In this document: piece after piece, positions 20,733-26,091 of the stretch
Numbering within the stretch: the stretch's first letter is position 1
How the letters are laid out: every line of letters starts with the position of its first letter
Source: Candidatus Saccharimonadota bacterium
GTDB taxonomy: Bacteria > Patescibacteriota > Saccharimonadia > Saccharimonadales > Saccharimonadaceae
Assembly: GCA_030528625.1 (NCBI GenBank)
Contig: JAUMYN010000001.1
Location: 186,001-250,000 of the forward strand
Direction of reading: 5' to 3'
DNA length: 64,000 bases
Translations under genes and position numbers: made by a program
The notes under the pieces: model-generated
The model's input: only the letters and a program-made list of their open reading frames with translations
What the model was told of the DNA's origin: nothing
The model's database searches: none

Positions 20733-21386
20733 TTATACCCAATACTGTGAAATATTAATAACTAATTGGCGGCACTCTTCTGGTGTATAAGCGTCCTGCT
20801 GTTCAAAATAATGCTCGGCCGGAAACATATGCGTCATTACATCGAGTGCTACACTGCGGTCGGTCTGTAGATGAAAGTAGTCGGCTGCCAATGAGTCAAC
20901 ATTACCACCCAGGCCGTATAGCGCGGCGTAGCGCACGGATTTGAGATATTCCAGGGCGACCGCTACCTCAATACGATCCTCCACGACGTCGCCCGTCAGA
21001 AGCAGCACCCGCCCATTGAGCGCCTCCTTGGTGAAGCCGCCATAGGCATCCAGAATACGATTTAATTCCGAAAAAGCCGTACGCTTGGCGTCTTCCAGGA
21101 CAGCGCGCGACTCCAGCTCAATGCCGTCGCGCTGCATTTTTTCCAGATCAGGACTCCAGGTAAACTGCCCGGTAGGACCAATCGCCCCCATGACACGCGG
21201 GTCGCCTGGAATAACAATACGCCGGGACAGGAGCGGAAAGACCCAGGCGCGAATTTCGCTCGCCAGACCTATGCAAGCTGTCAGCGCCGACTCTTTTAAG
21301 GCAATAACCACCGCTTCCTGTCCGCGCAGCTCCTGAAGCCGCCCTCCGAGTGTTCGGCCCAACTCAATCCGATTCACATAATACAT
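20733..21386 (-). CDS. Predicted phosphoribosyltransferase-like protein (COG1926-like), head of the MoxR operon
   Basis: The ~217-aa protein resembles stand-alone type I phosphoribosyltransferase-like proteins: ELGRTLGGRLQELRGQEAVVIALKES at the start, GAIGPTGQF in the middle, GRVLLLTGDVVED in the place of the PRPP loop, and a C-terminal AEHYFEQQDAYTPEEC. The PRPP loop lacks the usual DD acidic pair in full (GDVVED), so activity is doubtful. I place the start at the ATG of MYYVNRIE, supported by the promoter; an in-frame codon at 21425 lies upstream of the -10. Only 8 nt separate it from moxR. Confidence 0.65.
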   Translation of the reverse strand: MYYVNRIELGRTLGGRLQELRGQEAVVIALKESALTACIGLASEIRAWVFPLLSRRIVIPGDPRVMGAIGPTGQFTWSPDLEKMQRDGIELESRAVLEDAKRTAFSELNRILDAYGGFTKEALNGRVLLLTGDVVEDRIEVAVALEYLKSVRYAALYGLGGNVDSLAADYFHLQTDRSVALDVMTHMFPAEHYFEQQDAYTPEECRQLVINISQYWV

Positions 21387-21396
21387 GTTGGTTATG

Positions 21397-21425
21397 ATTA
21401 TGCGGTGTGACGTACAAAAAAGCAA
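21397..21425 (-). promoter_or_regulatory. Promoter of the PRTase-MoxR-VWA operon
   Basis: On the minus strand TTGCTT (plus 21420-21425), a 17-nt spacer and CATAAT (plus 21397-21402) lie 10 nt before the ATG at 21384-21386. The leader would be only about 3 nt, close to leaderless. Confidence 0.45.
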
Positions 21426-21445
21426 GGGGCGGGATGTTGTGGCGG

Positions 21446-22645
21446 TTACGCGCCAAGATACGACTGCTTGACCTGCTGGTAGGCGTCGCGGAAAGGCACA
21501 CCTTTTTCGACCAACTCGTTGATTTTAGCGACGGTGTAGAGTTCATCGGTCATCGCTTCGGCTAGGCGTTCGGTATTGGCCTCGAGCTCGCTGACACAGA
21601 GCGCAAGAACTTCCAGGGTGTCGAGCGCCGAGGTAAAGGCATCCATGGTAATTTTCTTGGTCAATTGCAGGTCGCGATGATAGCCGCTGCCAGCCCCCGT
21701 TGCGATAGCTTGTAGCTGGAACGCATAGTTCGGAAAGGCGTGGGCTGTCGCACGCATAATCTCGAATACGTCGTAGTTGCGCTTGTGCGGCATGATTGAC
21801 GAACCAGTGGTCATCGTGACTGGCAACTTAAAATAATTAAACTCTTGCGAGGTAAATAGCAACATGTCTTCGGCGAACTTACCAGCAAAGGTCATGATTG
21901 GATTGAGCGCTTGCACCGCGATAAGTTCAAATATACCGCGGGATAGCCCGCAGTACATCGGGTTTTCTTGGATTGTAGCAAAACCAAGTTCGTCGGTTGT
22001 CATTTGGCGGTCGAGCGGCAGGGTAACACCAAATCCGGCAGCACTGCCGAGCGGATTTTGATCAATGGCAGCGATGCTGTGCGTCACCAGTTGCCGAAGA
22101 TCGCTAAATGCGTCATGATACGACCCCAGCCACATGCCAACGCTACTCGGCATAGCTTTTTGGGTGTGGGTATAACCAGGCATCTCGGTCTGGCCAATGC
22201 TTGCAATTTTGCCAGCATAGGCCTGGGCGACGGCTTGCAGTTTGTCCACCACCGTCTCAAGCTCCGTCTTGATATATAAGCGCATCATCACCAAAGCCTG
22301 GTCATTGCGGCTGCGTCCGGTGTGGACTTTTTTGCCAATTGGGCCAAGTTTCTCTGTCAAATAAAGCTCAATCGCGGTATGCCCGTCTTCGTGTTCGGTT
22401 GTCAGCTTGAACTCGCCCTGTTGCCATTTGTGCAGCAGCTCATCAAGAGCGTCTGCTAATTGTCGATACTCTTGATGGGTCAGTACGCCAATTTTTTCCA
22501 ACATATGGGCGTGTGCCTTGGTGGCGGTGATGTCGTGCCCCAACAGCATTTGGTCAAGCACTTGATCGTCGCCGATGGTATAGGCTTCGATGAGCGGATG
22601 TAGAGTGCCGGTTGCGGTTGATTGCCATAGTTTGTTATTTGTCAT
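21446..22645 (-). CDS. argH: Argininosuccinate lyase
   Basis: The 399-aa enzyme splits argininosuccinate into arginine and fumarate. Superfamily motifs are present: TEHEDGHTAIE with its conserved His, HTGRSRNDQ, GYTHTQKAMPSS and the flexible catalytic loop GSSIMPHKRN carrying the catalytic serine. It is slightly shorter than the usual ~460 residues. The ATG lies 11 nt inside argG behind AAGGAG, so the pair is co-translated under the leader described upstream of argG. Confidence 0.93.
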   Translation of the reverse strand: MTNNKLWQSTATGTLHPLIEAYTIGDDQVLDQMLLGHDITATKAHAHMLEKIGVLTHQEYRQLADALDELLHKWQQGEFKLTTEHEDGHTAIELYLTEKLGPIGKKVHTGRSRNDQALVMMRLYIKTELETVVDKLQAVAQAYAGKIASIGQTEMPGYTHTQKAMPSSVGMWLGSYHDAFSDLRQLVTHSIAAIDQNPLGSAAGFGVTLPLDRQMTTDELGFATIQENPMYCGLSRGIFELIAVQALNPIMTFAGKFAEDMLLFTSQEFNYFKLPVTMTTGSSIMPHKRNYDVFEIMRATAHAFPNYAFQLQAIATGAGSGYHRDLQLTKKITMDAFTSALDTLEVLALCVSELEANTERLAEAMTDELYTVAKINELVEKGVPFRDAYQQVKQSYLGA

Positions 22646-23897
22646 ATGAGTATGCTCCTTCTGCCGTTCGTTGGCTTAATGAATATAGTTCGATAAATCC
22701 TGCAGATGAATTTTGATTGAAAGCTGCGTTGCTGTCAAATGTCGCTAGGTTAATGTCAAAAAGCGAGTGCGGTGAATCAAGGTTGATGACGGTTGCGGTG
22801 CCTTTGTGGAGGCGGAGGGTGACTGTCCCGGTGACTTTGCGGTTTTGGCTGTCAATGTAGGCGTTGATGTGGCGCACCGTCGGCTCAAACCACTGTGCGG
22901 CATAGGTGAGATATGCCCATTTTTTGTCCATTTCAGCTTTAAGTTCGTTTTCGGTCCGAGTCGAGACTAATTGCTCCAATTTTTGATGAGCAGTGATTAG
23001 CATAGTAGCGCCGGGATTTTCGTAGACACCGCGCACCTTGAGCCCGATCAGACGGTCTTCAATGAGCGTAGAGACGCCAACACCGTGTTTGCGGCCGATG
23101 TGATTACACTGCTGGATAAGCGACTGGAGTGAGGCTTGGCGGCCGTTGACGGCGACGGGGAGTCCGGCAATAAACTCAATGGTGACGTCCTCTGGCTCGT
23201 CGGGTGCGTGGCGGATGGTTGAGCACCAGTTGAGGATTGCCGGATAGTTTGGCGTCAGCTGCGGCGACTCGATTTCGCCGCCTTCGCTGGTGATGCCCCA
23301 CATATTTTCGTCTGTTGAATATGGTGAATCTTTGGTGTGAGGAACGGGAATGTTGTGTTTGTGCGCGTAAGCGATTTCCTCTTCGCGACCCATGCTCCAT
23401 TCGCGAACTGGCGCCAGGATTTTGAGCTGGGGGTTGAGTGTGGTGATATAGGTCTCAAAGCGGACTTGGTCGTTGCCCTTGCCAGTTGCGCCATGGGCGA
23501 TGACCGAACAGTGATATTTCTCGGCATATTCAACCGCCAGTTGCGAGATAATGATTCGCCCGAGTGGCGTGCACAGCGCATAGCCGCCCTGATAGTCAGC
23601 ATTGGCCTTGATGGCTCGTGAGAGTAGTTCGTCAGCGAAACGATCGCGGGCGTCAACCGTTAAGGTCTCGACGGCACCTAGCGCCTTGGCCTTGGCGGCG
23701 ATGGCCGTCAGGTCGTCAACCGTCTGGCCGATGTCAACCGTCAGAGTAATGACCCGGCAATGGTATTTTTCCTGAATCCATTTGAGCATAACGGATGTGT
23801 CAAGTCCGCCTGAGTAGAGCAGTAGGCAAGTATCAAACTCACCGTCCTTGGCTTCGTGGCTGGCGATTTTGGCGTATTGCGGGGTGTCGTGTTTCAT
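22635..23897 (-). CDS. argG: Argininosuccinate synthase
   Basis: The 420-aa enzyme condenses citrulline and aspartate using ATP. The N-type ATP pyrophosphatase loop LLYSGGLDTSVMLKW is near the N-terminus, and GATGKGNDQVRFE, SPYSTDENMWGIT and IGRKHGVGVSTLIEDR match conserved substrate regions. The start follows AAAGGA. A transcription terminator and a short arginine-rich leader ORF lie upstream on the same strand, giving a clear attenuation layout. No carbamoyl-ornithine genes are in the window, so citrulline may be imported or come from arginine deiminase. Confidence 0.95.
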   Translation of the reverse strand: MKHDTPQYAKIASHEAKDGEFDTCLLLYSGGLDTSVMLKWIQEKYHCRVITLTVDIGQTVDDLTAIAAKAKALGAVETLTVDARDRFADELLSRAIKANADYQGGYALCTPLGRIIISQLAVEYAEKYHCSVIAHGATGKGNDQVRFETYITTLNPQLKILAPVREWSMGREEEIAYAHKHNIPVPHTKDSPYSTDENMWGITSEGGEIESPQLTPNYPAILNWCSTIRHAPDEPEDVTIEFIAGLPVAVNGRQASLQSLIQQCNHIGRKHGVGVSTLIEDRLIGLKVRGVYENPGATMLITAHQKLEQLVSTRTENELKAEMDKKWAYLTYAAQWFEPTVRHINAYIDSQNRKVTGTVTLRLHKGTATVINLDSPHSLFDINLATFDSNAAFNQNSSAGFIELYSLSQRTAEGAYSYDK

Positions 23898-23912
23898 AAA
23901 AATCCTTTCTTG

Positions 23913-23918
23913 ATTATA
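23913..23918 (-). promoter_or_regulatory. Possible secondary -10 box before argG
   Basis: On the minus strand a TATAAT hexamer lies between the leader terminator and the argG ribosome site, without a convincing -35. If active, it would bypass attenuation and give basal argGH expression with a short leader. Confidence 0.3.
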
Positions 23919-23922
23919 CGAT

Positions 23923-23951
23923 AAAAAAGAGCCGCTCGGGTGAGGGCTCTT
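23923..23951 (-). terminator. Attenuator terminator in the argG leader
   Basis: On the minus strand AAGAGCC (plus 23945-23951), an 11-nt loop and GGCTCTT (plus 23927-23933) form a 7-bp stem running into TTTTTT. The 5' arm shares bases with AGCCCTCA (plus 23941-23948), which can instead pair with TGAGGGCT (plus 23983-23990) at the end of the leader ORF. The two structures exclude each other. Confidence 0.85.
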
Positions 23952-23980
23952 TGTATTGCTATTTTATTATATACGACAAA

Positions 23981-24034
23981 CTAGCCCTCAGCGAGAGAGC
24001 GACGACGACGGATAACGTTGTGCGTAGTTGTCAT
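23981..24034 (-). CDS. argL: Arginine leader peptide controlling argGH (proposed)
   Basis: The 17-residue ORF reads MTTTHNVIRRRRSLAEG and ends in TAG. Codons 9-12 are four consecutive arginine codons (CGT CGT CGT CGC). The ATG lies 7 nt after a TATACT box with a TTGACA 17 nt further up, so the mRNA is leaderless. The last codons contain TGAGGGCT, the antiterminator arm. A ribosome stalled at the arginine codons would leave this arm free to pair with the terminator's 5' side; a ribosome reaching the TAG would cover it. The peptide probably has no function beyond sensing charged tRNA-Arg. Confidence 0.82.
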   Translation of the reverse strand: MTTTHNVIRRRRSLAEG

Positions 24035-24041
24035 GCCAGGT

Positions 24042-24070
24042 AGTATAGCGTGCCGTGATCATATTGTCAA
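24042..24070 (-). promoter_or_regulatory. Consensus promoter of the arg leader-argGH operon
   Basis: On the minus strand TTGACA (plus 24065-24070), a 17-nt spacer and TATACT (plus 24042-24047) lie 7 nt before the leader-peptide ATG. This is one of the best consensus promoters in the window. It is interleaved with the divergent uvrB promoter. Confidence 0.85.
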
Positions 24071-24091
24071 GACGCCGCTGTGATGGGAAGT

Positions 24092-24099
24092 GGTATACT
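24092..24099 (+). promoter_or_regulatory. Leaderless-type promoter of uvrB
   Basis: TGG-TATACT (hexamer 24094-24099) is separated by 6 nt from a GTG start codon at 24106. No ribosome site is present, which supports leaderless initiation. Confidence 0.65.
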
Positions 24100-24105
24100 G
24101 AAAGA

Positions 24106-26091
24106 GTGCAAGAATTTCGACTCGTTTCACAGTATCAACCCACCGGCGACCAGCCGACGGCGATTGCTCAGTTGGTGGATGGGCTGGAGCGGGGCGAGCG
24201 CGAGCAGACGCTGCTGGGTGTCACGGGCTCGGGAAAAACCTTTGTGATGTCATGTGTGATCGCCCAGCGGAATGTGCCGACACTAGTGCTGGCGCACAAC
24301 AAGACGCTGGCGGCGCAGTTGTTTGCCGAGTTCAAGGAGTTTTTCCCGGATAATGAGGTGCATTATTTTGTTAGCTATTTTGATTATTATCAGCCAGAGG
24401 CGTATATCGCTAGCTCGGACACCTACATTGAGAAAGATTCGAAAATTAATGATGAGATCGATCGGTTGCGGCATGCGGCGACCAGTGCGCTGCTGACGCG
24501 CCGCGACGTCATCATCGTGGCCAGTGTTAGTTGTATTTACGGCATCGGTTCGCCGGACACCTATGCCGACATGGCTTTGAAAGTCACGCGCGGCGAGCGG
24601 CGGGTGCAGGACAAGTTCGTGCGGCTGCTGACCGACATCCAGTACAAGCGCAATGACATCGACTTTGCACGCGGTACCTTCCGGGTGCGCGGCGATGTGG
24701 TTGATATCTATCCGGCCGGGCAAGACCAGGCGGTGCGAGTGGAGTTTTTTGGTGATGAGGTAGACCGAATCACTAAAATTGACGCACTGACGGGCGAGAT
24801 TTTAGACGAGCCTGAGAGTGTGACAATTTTTCCGTCCAGCCACTATGCCACGCCGCGCGAGCGGATTGAGCGGGCAGTTGTCGGCATTGAAAAGGAGTTT
24901 GCCGAGCGGCTGGCGTGGTTTGAGGCGCATGATAAGCACCTTGAGGCGCAGCGGCTGACTCAGCGCACCAAGTACGACCTGGAGATGCTACGCGAAACGG
25001 GCTTTGTCAAGGGTATCGAGAATTATTCGCGTTACCTGACCGACCGCGAGCCGGGCGAGCAGCCAGCGACCCTCCTCGACTATTTTCCGGACGATTGGCT
25101 GCTGCTGGTCGATGAGTCGCACATGACGCTGCCCCAGGTGCGCGGCATGTATAACGGCGATCGGGCGCGCAAGGAAGTCTTGGTGGAGCATGGCTTTCGC
25201 TTGCCGAGCGCACTGGACAACCGACCTCTCAGGTTTGATGAATTTGAGCGTCATATCAATCAAGCGATTTATGTTTCGGCCACGCCGGGCGACTATGAAA
25301 TCGCCCATTCGCCGAAACCGGCCGAGCAGCTGATCCGCCCGACGGGGCTACTCGATCCACCGATTGAAGTGCGCCCAACCGACGGCCAGGTGGACGATTT
25401 GATGGAGGAAATTCGCCAAACCATCGCCAAAGGTCACCGTGTGCTGGTGACGACCTTGACCAAGCGCATGGCGGAAGATCTCAGCACGTACCTCAGTGAC
25501 AACGGCGTCAAGACGGCGTATCTGCATAGCGAAATTGACACTCTGGAACGCGGCGATATTCTCAAAGATTTGCGGCTTGGCACCTACGATGTGCTCGTTG
25601 GCATCAATCTGTTGCGCGAAGGGTTGGATTTGCCCGAAGTGAGCCTAGTGGCTATCATGGACGCCGACAAAGAAGGCTTCCTGCGCTCCGAAAGTGCCCT
25701 AATTCAGACCATTGGCCGGGCTGCTCGCCATGTCGAGGGTCGAGTGCTGATGTATGGCGACACGGTGACCGACAGCATGCGCCGCGCCATTGACGAGACC
25801 ATTCGCCGCCGGGCCGTCCAGCAGGCGTACAATGAAAAGCATGGCATTACGCCACAAACAATTCAGAAGAAAATTGACGACGGCCTGCGCGCCATCATCC
25901 CGCAAAAAGAATCAGACAAAAAGCCGAAACTTGACCTGAAGAAAATTCCGAAAGATGAATACCCTGCGCTCATCAAAGAACTCACTGGACAGATGGAACT
26001 GCATAGCGCCAACCTGGAATTTGAAAAAGCCGCCGAGCTCCGCGACCTTATTGCTGAAATTCGCCAGACGATGTACACTAGGGGTAGCTAA
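24106..26091 (+). CDS. uvrB: UvrABC excision nuclease subunit B
   Basis: The 661-aa helicase-like damage-verification subunit of nucleotide excision repair takes damaged sites from UvrA and recruits UvrC. Walker [10 protein letters not shown] is at about residue 38. The beta-hairpin region [21 protein letters not shown], helicase motif [37 protein letters not shown] and a C-terminal UVR helix pair ([17 protein letters not shown]-like) are all visible. The start is GTG 24106, placed by the promoter; the in-frame ATG at 24055 lies upstream of it, inside the arg leader promoter. Confidence 0.96.

Follow-up and report, generated by a model that had tools for sequence, protein, structure and literature searches.

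Bacterial arginine genes are known for control by ArgR or by T-boxes, and the classical ribosome-mediated attenuators are the trp, his, leu, thr and phe leaders of Proteobacteria. In the window, the whole 64,000-nucleotide stretch of DNA analysed here, a short ORF with a run of arginine codons lies upstream of argG and argH, and a first-pass annotation had read it as an arginine attenuator. Is argGH controlled in this organism by the passage of a ribosome through arginine codons, and do its relatives share such a device? Our results make it very probable that argGH is controlled by a ribosome-mediated transcription attenuator responsive to the charging of arginyl-tRNA, a reading supported by conserved homologous loci, compensatory changes, modelled geometry and the failure to detect ArgR. 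The locus combines a leader ORF, clustered and conserved Arg codons, a terminator, a covarying antiterminator and arg genes downstream; from these elements, their conservation and their geometry we infer that ribosomes stall at the Arg codons and that termination responds to arginine.

All parts of the element lie on the minus strand at about 24 kb. The sigma-70-type promoter TTGACA-N17-TATACT (24042–24070) matches the consensus at 11 of 12 positions, with the -35 hexamer TTGACA at 24070–24065, the -10 hexamer TATACT at 24047–24042 and a spacer of 17 nt, and it is the best promoter match within 21000–25000. It is followed by a 17-codon leader ORF, MTTTHNVIRRRRSLAEG (23981–24034; coding part 24034–23984, TAG at 23983–23981), whose codons are ATG ACA ACT ACG CAC AAC GTT ATC CGT CGT CGT CGC TCT CTC GCT GAG GGC TAG. 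The sensor is the run of four consecutive Arg codons, CGT CGT CGT CGC, at 23999–24010. Segment 2, the 5' arm of the antiterminator (UGAGGGCU at 23983–23990, ORF nt 45–52; TGAGGGCT in the DNA, 23990–23983), is complementary to segment 3, its 3' arm (AGCCCUCA at 23941–23948; AGCCCTCA in the DNA, 23948–23941), which overlaps the 5' arm of an intrinsic terminator hairpin (23926–23952, -14.5 kcal/mol) with a T6 tract at 23923–23928. After the leader TAG come an AT-rich 28-base linker, AAAGAGCCCTCACCCGAGCGGCTCTTTTTT, a ribosome-binding site and argG. The promoter, the 17-codon ORF, the Arg run, the terminator and the 8-nt complement are exactly where the first-pass annotation had placed them; a protector (1:2) hairpin, GCUCUC/GAGGGC, which extends from the end of the Arg codons to segment 2 (23984–24000, -9.3 kcal/mol), was absent from its description.

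The leader ORF had also been called leaderless. This label fits because the gap between the -10 hexamer and the ATG is just seven bases, which would put the start of transcription at or beside the leader AUG; the start site is thus a predicted one, and the feature is already known from Sinorhizobium meliloti trpL (rnTrpL/peTrpL), where the leader ORF starts at the first base of the transcript (PMC7298713). No Shine-Dalgarno sequence precedes the leader ORF, whereas argG has its own ribosome-binding site, AGAAAGGA, ahead of its start at 23897. The argininosuccinate synthase gene argG (22635–23897, minus strand; TIGR00032, 441 bits against a cut-off of 268) would be the first gene controlled, and it overlaps by 11 bases the argininosuccinate lyase gene argH (21446–22645, minus strand; TIGR00838, 289 bits against a cut-off of 279.5); Pfam and NCBIfam searches confirmed both families. 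Among named relatives, those nearest to the window's ArgG come from 'Candidatus Saccharibacteria' MAGs (86% and 77% identity), so the genome had been correctly assigned to the Patescibacteria type. The gene after argH (20733–21425, minus strand, 230 aa) has no Pfam match and by eye resembles a phosphoribosyltransferase.

These parts suggest a simple switch. Transcription would begin at or beside the leader AUG, with the ribosome trailing the polymerase. If charged Arg-tRNA is at hand, the ribosome would pass the four Arg codons, reach the UAG and cover segment 2, and with segment 2 covered, segment 3 would enter the terminator and transcription would halt ahead of argG. With Arg-tRNA in short supply, the ribosome would stall in the Arg run and cover the protector sequence, leaving segment 2 free to form the antiterminator with segment 3, and argGH would be transcribed. 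With no translating ribosome, the 1:2 hairpin would hide segment 2 and termination would be the default. The antiterminator hairpin (-15.8 kcal/mol) and the terminator (-14.5 kcal/mol) have the balance in energy that a switch requires. A chance origin of the leader was considered and rejected: its folding energy lies 3.7 SD below that of shuffled sequences, the window has a single instance of an ATG ORF just downstream of a -10 hexamer with a four-Arg run and a following terminator, and 15 shuffles have none, and none of 100,000 partner permutations, described below, equalled the observed pairing.

Alignment of related Saccharibacteria loci had been proposed as a check. ArgG was searched in a sample, not an exhaustive set, of 394 family genomes and 393 order genomes, in which MAGs may be incomplete. 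Ten of the family genomes bear argG, and in nine of them a leader lies directly upstream of it. The peptides of these nine leaders, which were located through ArgG and independently of any covariance model, have only an invariant RRR in common, and their arm pairs vary in step (GAGGGCU/AGCCCUC, GAGGGUCG/CGACCCUC, GGGGGCU/AGCCCCC). Elsewhere in the order, the leader lies before argG at two loci (L019, L022), argH where argH comes first (L037, L038, L039), and an operon-leading GNAT-like gene at two more (L035, L036). The element is missing at some argG genes of the order (L025–L029 and L032–L033 of family f31, plus L010, L030, L031 and L034), and the non-Patescibacteria ArgG loci L013–L017 have no such leader. 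The protector hairpin is clear in just part of the leaders. Arg runs, complements and terminators are retained at homologous loci, with compensatory changes; unconserved Arg codons or broken complementarity, for which these loci were also inspected, were not the pattern found. The argG gene of L031 (G459:C18:10902-12137) contains one in-frame TGA, which may be an assembly error, a pseudogene or recoding.

The pairing between segments 2 and 3 covaries strongly. In 16 leaders, segment 2 and the segment 3 of the same leader pair at a mean of -20.3 kcal/mol, compared with -14.4 kcal/mol for swapped partners, and this is the pairing that none of the 100,000 permutations equalled. In MAFFT alignments (A1, A2) the leaders aligned poorly across the terminator, and RNAalifold detected no shared structure in A2; the antiterminator columns were set by hand and the leaders realigned with a covariance model. 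Among the 35 leaders so aligned, 87.7% of antiterminator cells are paired, a figure that falls to about 50% when the partner is slid by 1–3 columns; changes on both sides occur in 49 cells, against 18.6 in shuffles (as many in none of 500), and compensatory changes are present in eight of the ten antiterminator pairs. Alignments made with a model are biased towards the modelled structure, though the nine family leaders were located through ArgG rather than by the model.

The geometry of the leaders also fits stalling. In all 33 parsed leaders, each of which has at least three Arg codons, the Arg run begins 17–24 nt, usually 21, ahead of segment 2. None of the 33 has a Shine-Dalgarno sequence before the leader ORF, and 23 have a -10-like hexamer 6–7 nt before the ATG, which makes the start site a predicted one in these leaders too. 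If the ribosome is modelled as covering 13 nt beyond the first base of the A-site codon, the expected number of antiterminator pairs in 34 leaders is 8.9 with the A site at codons 1–3 of the Arg run, 4.7 at codon +4, 1.5 at codon +5 and zero at the stop. The modelled pairing in the window's own leader drops between Arg12 and Ser13, and two leaders upstream of argG in other Patescibacteria groups (L046, L048) have the same profile; in L048 pairing is also low ahead of the Arg codons, so that it peaks at the Arg codons only. In the model, then, a stall at the Arg run frees segment 2 and a ribosome at the stop hides it, as had been proposed. The leaders also use a restricted set of codons: 106 of their 118 Arg codons are CGU or CGC, which account for 59% of Arg codons in genes at the family loci and for 39% at the more distant, AT-richer loci. 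This bias suggests that the leader reads one tRNA-Arg; the later leaders were found by a model trained on such codons, and the first nine were not.

Codon choice bears directly on an alternative in which the chemistry of the Arg-rich nascent chain, perhaps together with free arginine or another ligand, arrests the ribosome. Basic nascent chains can slow ribosomes. Leader peptides that sense small molecules by other means than codon-specific stalling are represented by Salmonella speF (PMC6386406) and the tryptophan-sensing TnaC (PMC8429421). However, no part of the peptide is conserved beyond the Arg codons, many leaders have only RRSxR, and the preference for CGU and CGC (106/118 vs 39–59% in neighbouring genes) is strong; furthermore, leaders of the same design that carry Cys or Phe codons instead stand ahead of genes for cysteine synthase and prephenate dehydratase. 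An arrest peptide is therefore an improbable explanation.

Even less probable is a T-box, or another RNA with direct recognition of tRNA or arginine, with the ORF being incidental. T-box control of arginine genes is known from other bacteria (PMC1262725), and the T-box family RF00230 has a match of 104 bits before argG in another Patescibacteria genome (L061), which served as the positive control for the T-box model; however, in the window neither this nor any other Rfam family gave a match, even at E<=1 over the leader, and these families were rejected there. The region is short, and what it conserves is codons and two mutually exclusive helices. The evidence at hand is that of sequence alone, which a plain uORF followed by a constitutive terminator, with no response to arginine, could in principle share, but covariation, geometry and the association with arginine genes leave this reading almost no probability. 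Attenuation by a translating ribosome thus remains the preferred account of the leader.

How far this attenuator extends was addressed with a covariance model (R1) searched in the 393 order genomes; E-values of such home-made models are rough, and statements about whole genomes draw on model and family searches. Matches were obtained in 46 of the 393 genomes, many of them with E <1e-7 in genomes in which argG was not detected. The peptides of these leaders contain RRSSRI, RRRSYRI and similar motifs, and the genes after them include argH, N-acetylglutamate kinase (argB) and arginyl-tRNA synthetase (argS) operons, as well as genes for GNAT acetyltransferases, members of the Asp/Glu racemase family and AstE/AspA-like hydrolases. 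In one genome (G510), a single leader stands before argH, argF, argJ, argD, argC and argS. The weak matches (E > ~1e-4) are a mixture, some being ordinary terminators or coding sequence (e.g., L132, L145, L149, L151, L152), and were therefore left out of the count of arginine leaders.

Leaders with other codons were also encountered. At L093 (the same locus as L113; G405:C21:5563-5652), an attenuator layout with cysteine codons, leader MSNMITQKDCCSCKFLECGF, precedes a cysteine-synthase-like gene with PALP and rhodanese domains, and the modelled antiterminator pairing is gone just past the Cys codons. The leader MSYLLSQNQLFFSSSRGGLASFCK at L147 (G465:C7:13756-13833) lies before a prephenate dehydratase gene; its modelled pairing is gone just past the FF codons, and it is thus probably a phenylalanine attenuator. 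GAW...YTW or GAW...YSW leaders precede proteins that have no Pfam match (L126, L139, L142), with a modelled geometry that suits a stall at the first Trp codon, less cleanly in L142. Lys-rich leaders (KKATSG, KKTTKG, KKKPLKG; L107, L134, L140) precede members of one uncharacterised protein family starting IFSSTGDLGT. Probable branched-chain attenuators occur elsewhere in the phylum, where short ORFs with many Leu, Ile and Val codons lie ahead of terminators of the GGGAGG/CCTCCC type (L116, L117, L120, L125, L131).

Other candidate sensors also stand before argG itself. The RF00230 T-box at L061 (175-389) and a T-box-like sequence below threshold at L053 show the same gene behind a different RNA sensor, and in two other groups (L050, L055) argG is immediately preceded by a very small ORF that has a ribosome-binding site (MKYRWRWRNF in one, MTKRWRRKN in the other), possibly another arginine-sensing design.

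Like the classical attenuators, the leader described here has a short ORF rich in the regulated amino acid, protector, antiterminator and terminator helices, and biosynthetic genes downstream; unlike them, it is predicted to be specific for arginine, occurs in Patescibacteria, has its ORF at the predicted 5' end of the transcript and matches no Rfam family. S. meliloti trpL, the precedent for such an ORF, concerns tryptophan in an alphaproteobacterium. Runs of the regulated amino acid are likewise found in the leader peptides of the actinobacterial trp, cys and branched-chain attenuators, some of which precede aminoacyl-tRNA synthetase genes, according to a survey that detected no conserved regulatory RNA structure ahead of arginine operons (PMC1262725). 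Arginine T-boxes resemble the leader in responding at the level of the transcript to arginyl-tRNA charging before arg genes, a response that is predicted here, but in them the RNA binds tRNA directly and there is no leader peptide. Short uORFs with Arg codons that sense arginine are known from Staphylococcus aureus rbfL and the Salmonella speF leader (PMC13009471, PMC6386406). In rbfL, however, scarce arginine blocks translation of rbf, which is the opposite sign, and there is no terminator switch, while speF is a polyamine gene; in neither case is arginine biosynthesis regulated through attenuation. In the searchable literature, outside which most subscription journals lie, we found no report of attenuation in Patescibacteria or Saccharibacteria, or of arginine attenuators of arg genes, and within those papers the earlier claim that such an element is undescribed holds. 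The mechanism is classical; what appears undescribed is its specificity for arginine, its occurrence in this phylum and how broad the regulon is.

The genome from which the window comes is 788 kb in size, with a completeness of 99.99. ArgR (PF01316) was detected in none of the 26 leader-bearing genomes, this one included, in a search whose control was positive in nine of 14 known genomes. Outside the window, the same genome carries an arginine deiminase operon, arcA-arcB-transporter-arcC (G000:C1, L154), in which arcA encodes the deiminase and arcB ornithine carbamoyltransferase, and whose transporter-like gene and carbamate kinase were identified from their translations rather than by family search; no Arg leader precedes this operon. 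In three other genomes (G172, G154, G159), a divergent arcA adjoins the argG leader. As the arc operon and argGH are found in one genome, having argGH off when arginine is plentiful would avert a futile cycle, and the shut-off of argGH at charged Arg-tRNA would accordingly prevent an ATP-consuming ArcA/ArgGH cycle. In TM7x, the arginine deiminase system serves both ATP supply and the interaction with the host, and the cultured strain has the deiminase pathway and lacks argG and argR (PMC12815258).

Taken together, we lean modestly towards the view that Saccharimonadales, with their tiny genomes in which ArgR was not detected, rely on attenuators whose leader ORFs are leaderless as a general form of amino-acid control. 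The arginine regulon would then unite biosynthetic genes, the arginyl-tRNA synthetase gene and accessory genes of the GNAT, racemase and AstE-like kinds; sibling attenuators would serve Cys and Phe, and possibly also Trp and Lys; and in strains that have the deiminase the ArcA/ArgGH cycle would be blocked. To our knowledge, regulation in Patescibacteria is almost unstudied, and genetic tools for Saccharibacteria now exist. Within the searchable papers, arginine is the specificity that was so far missing from ribosome-mediated attenuation of biosynthetic operons, and the element offers a ready-made arginine regulon for genes of unknown function such as the GNATs, the racemases and the AstE-like hydrolases. 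Arginine is central to the biology of these epibionts, and a charging-based switch placed on argGH alone would explain how the cell from which the window comes avoids an ATP-burning loop.
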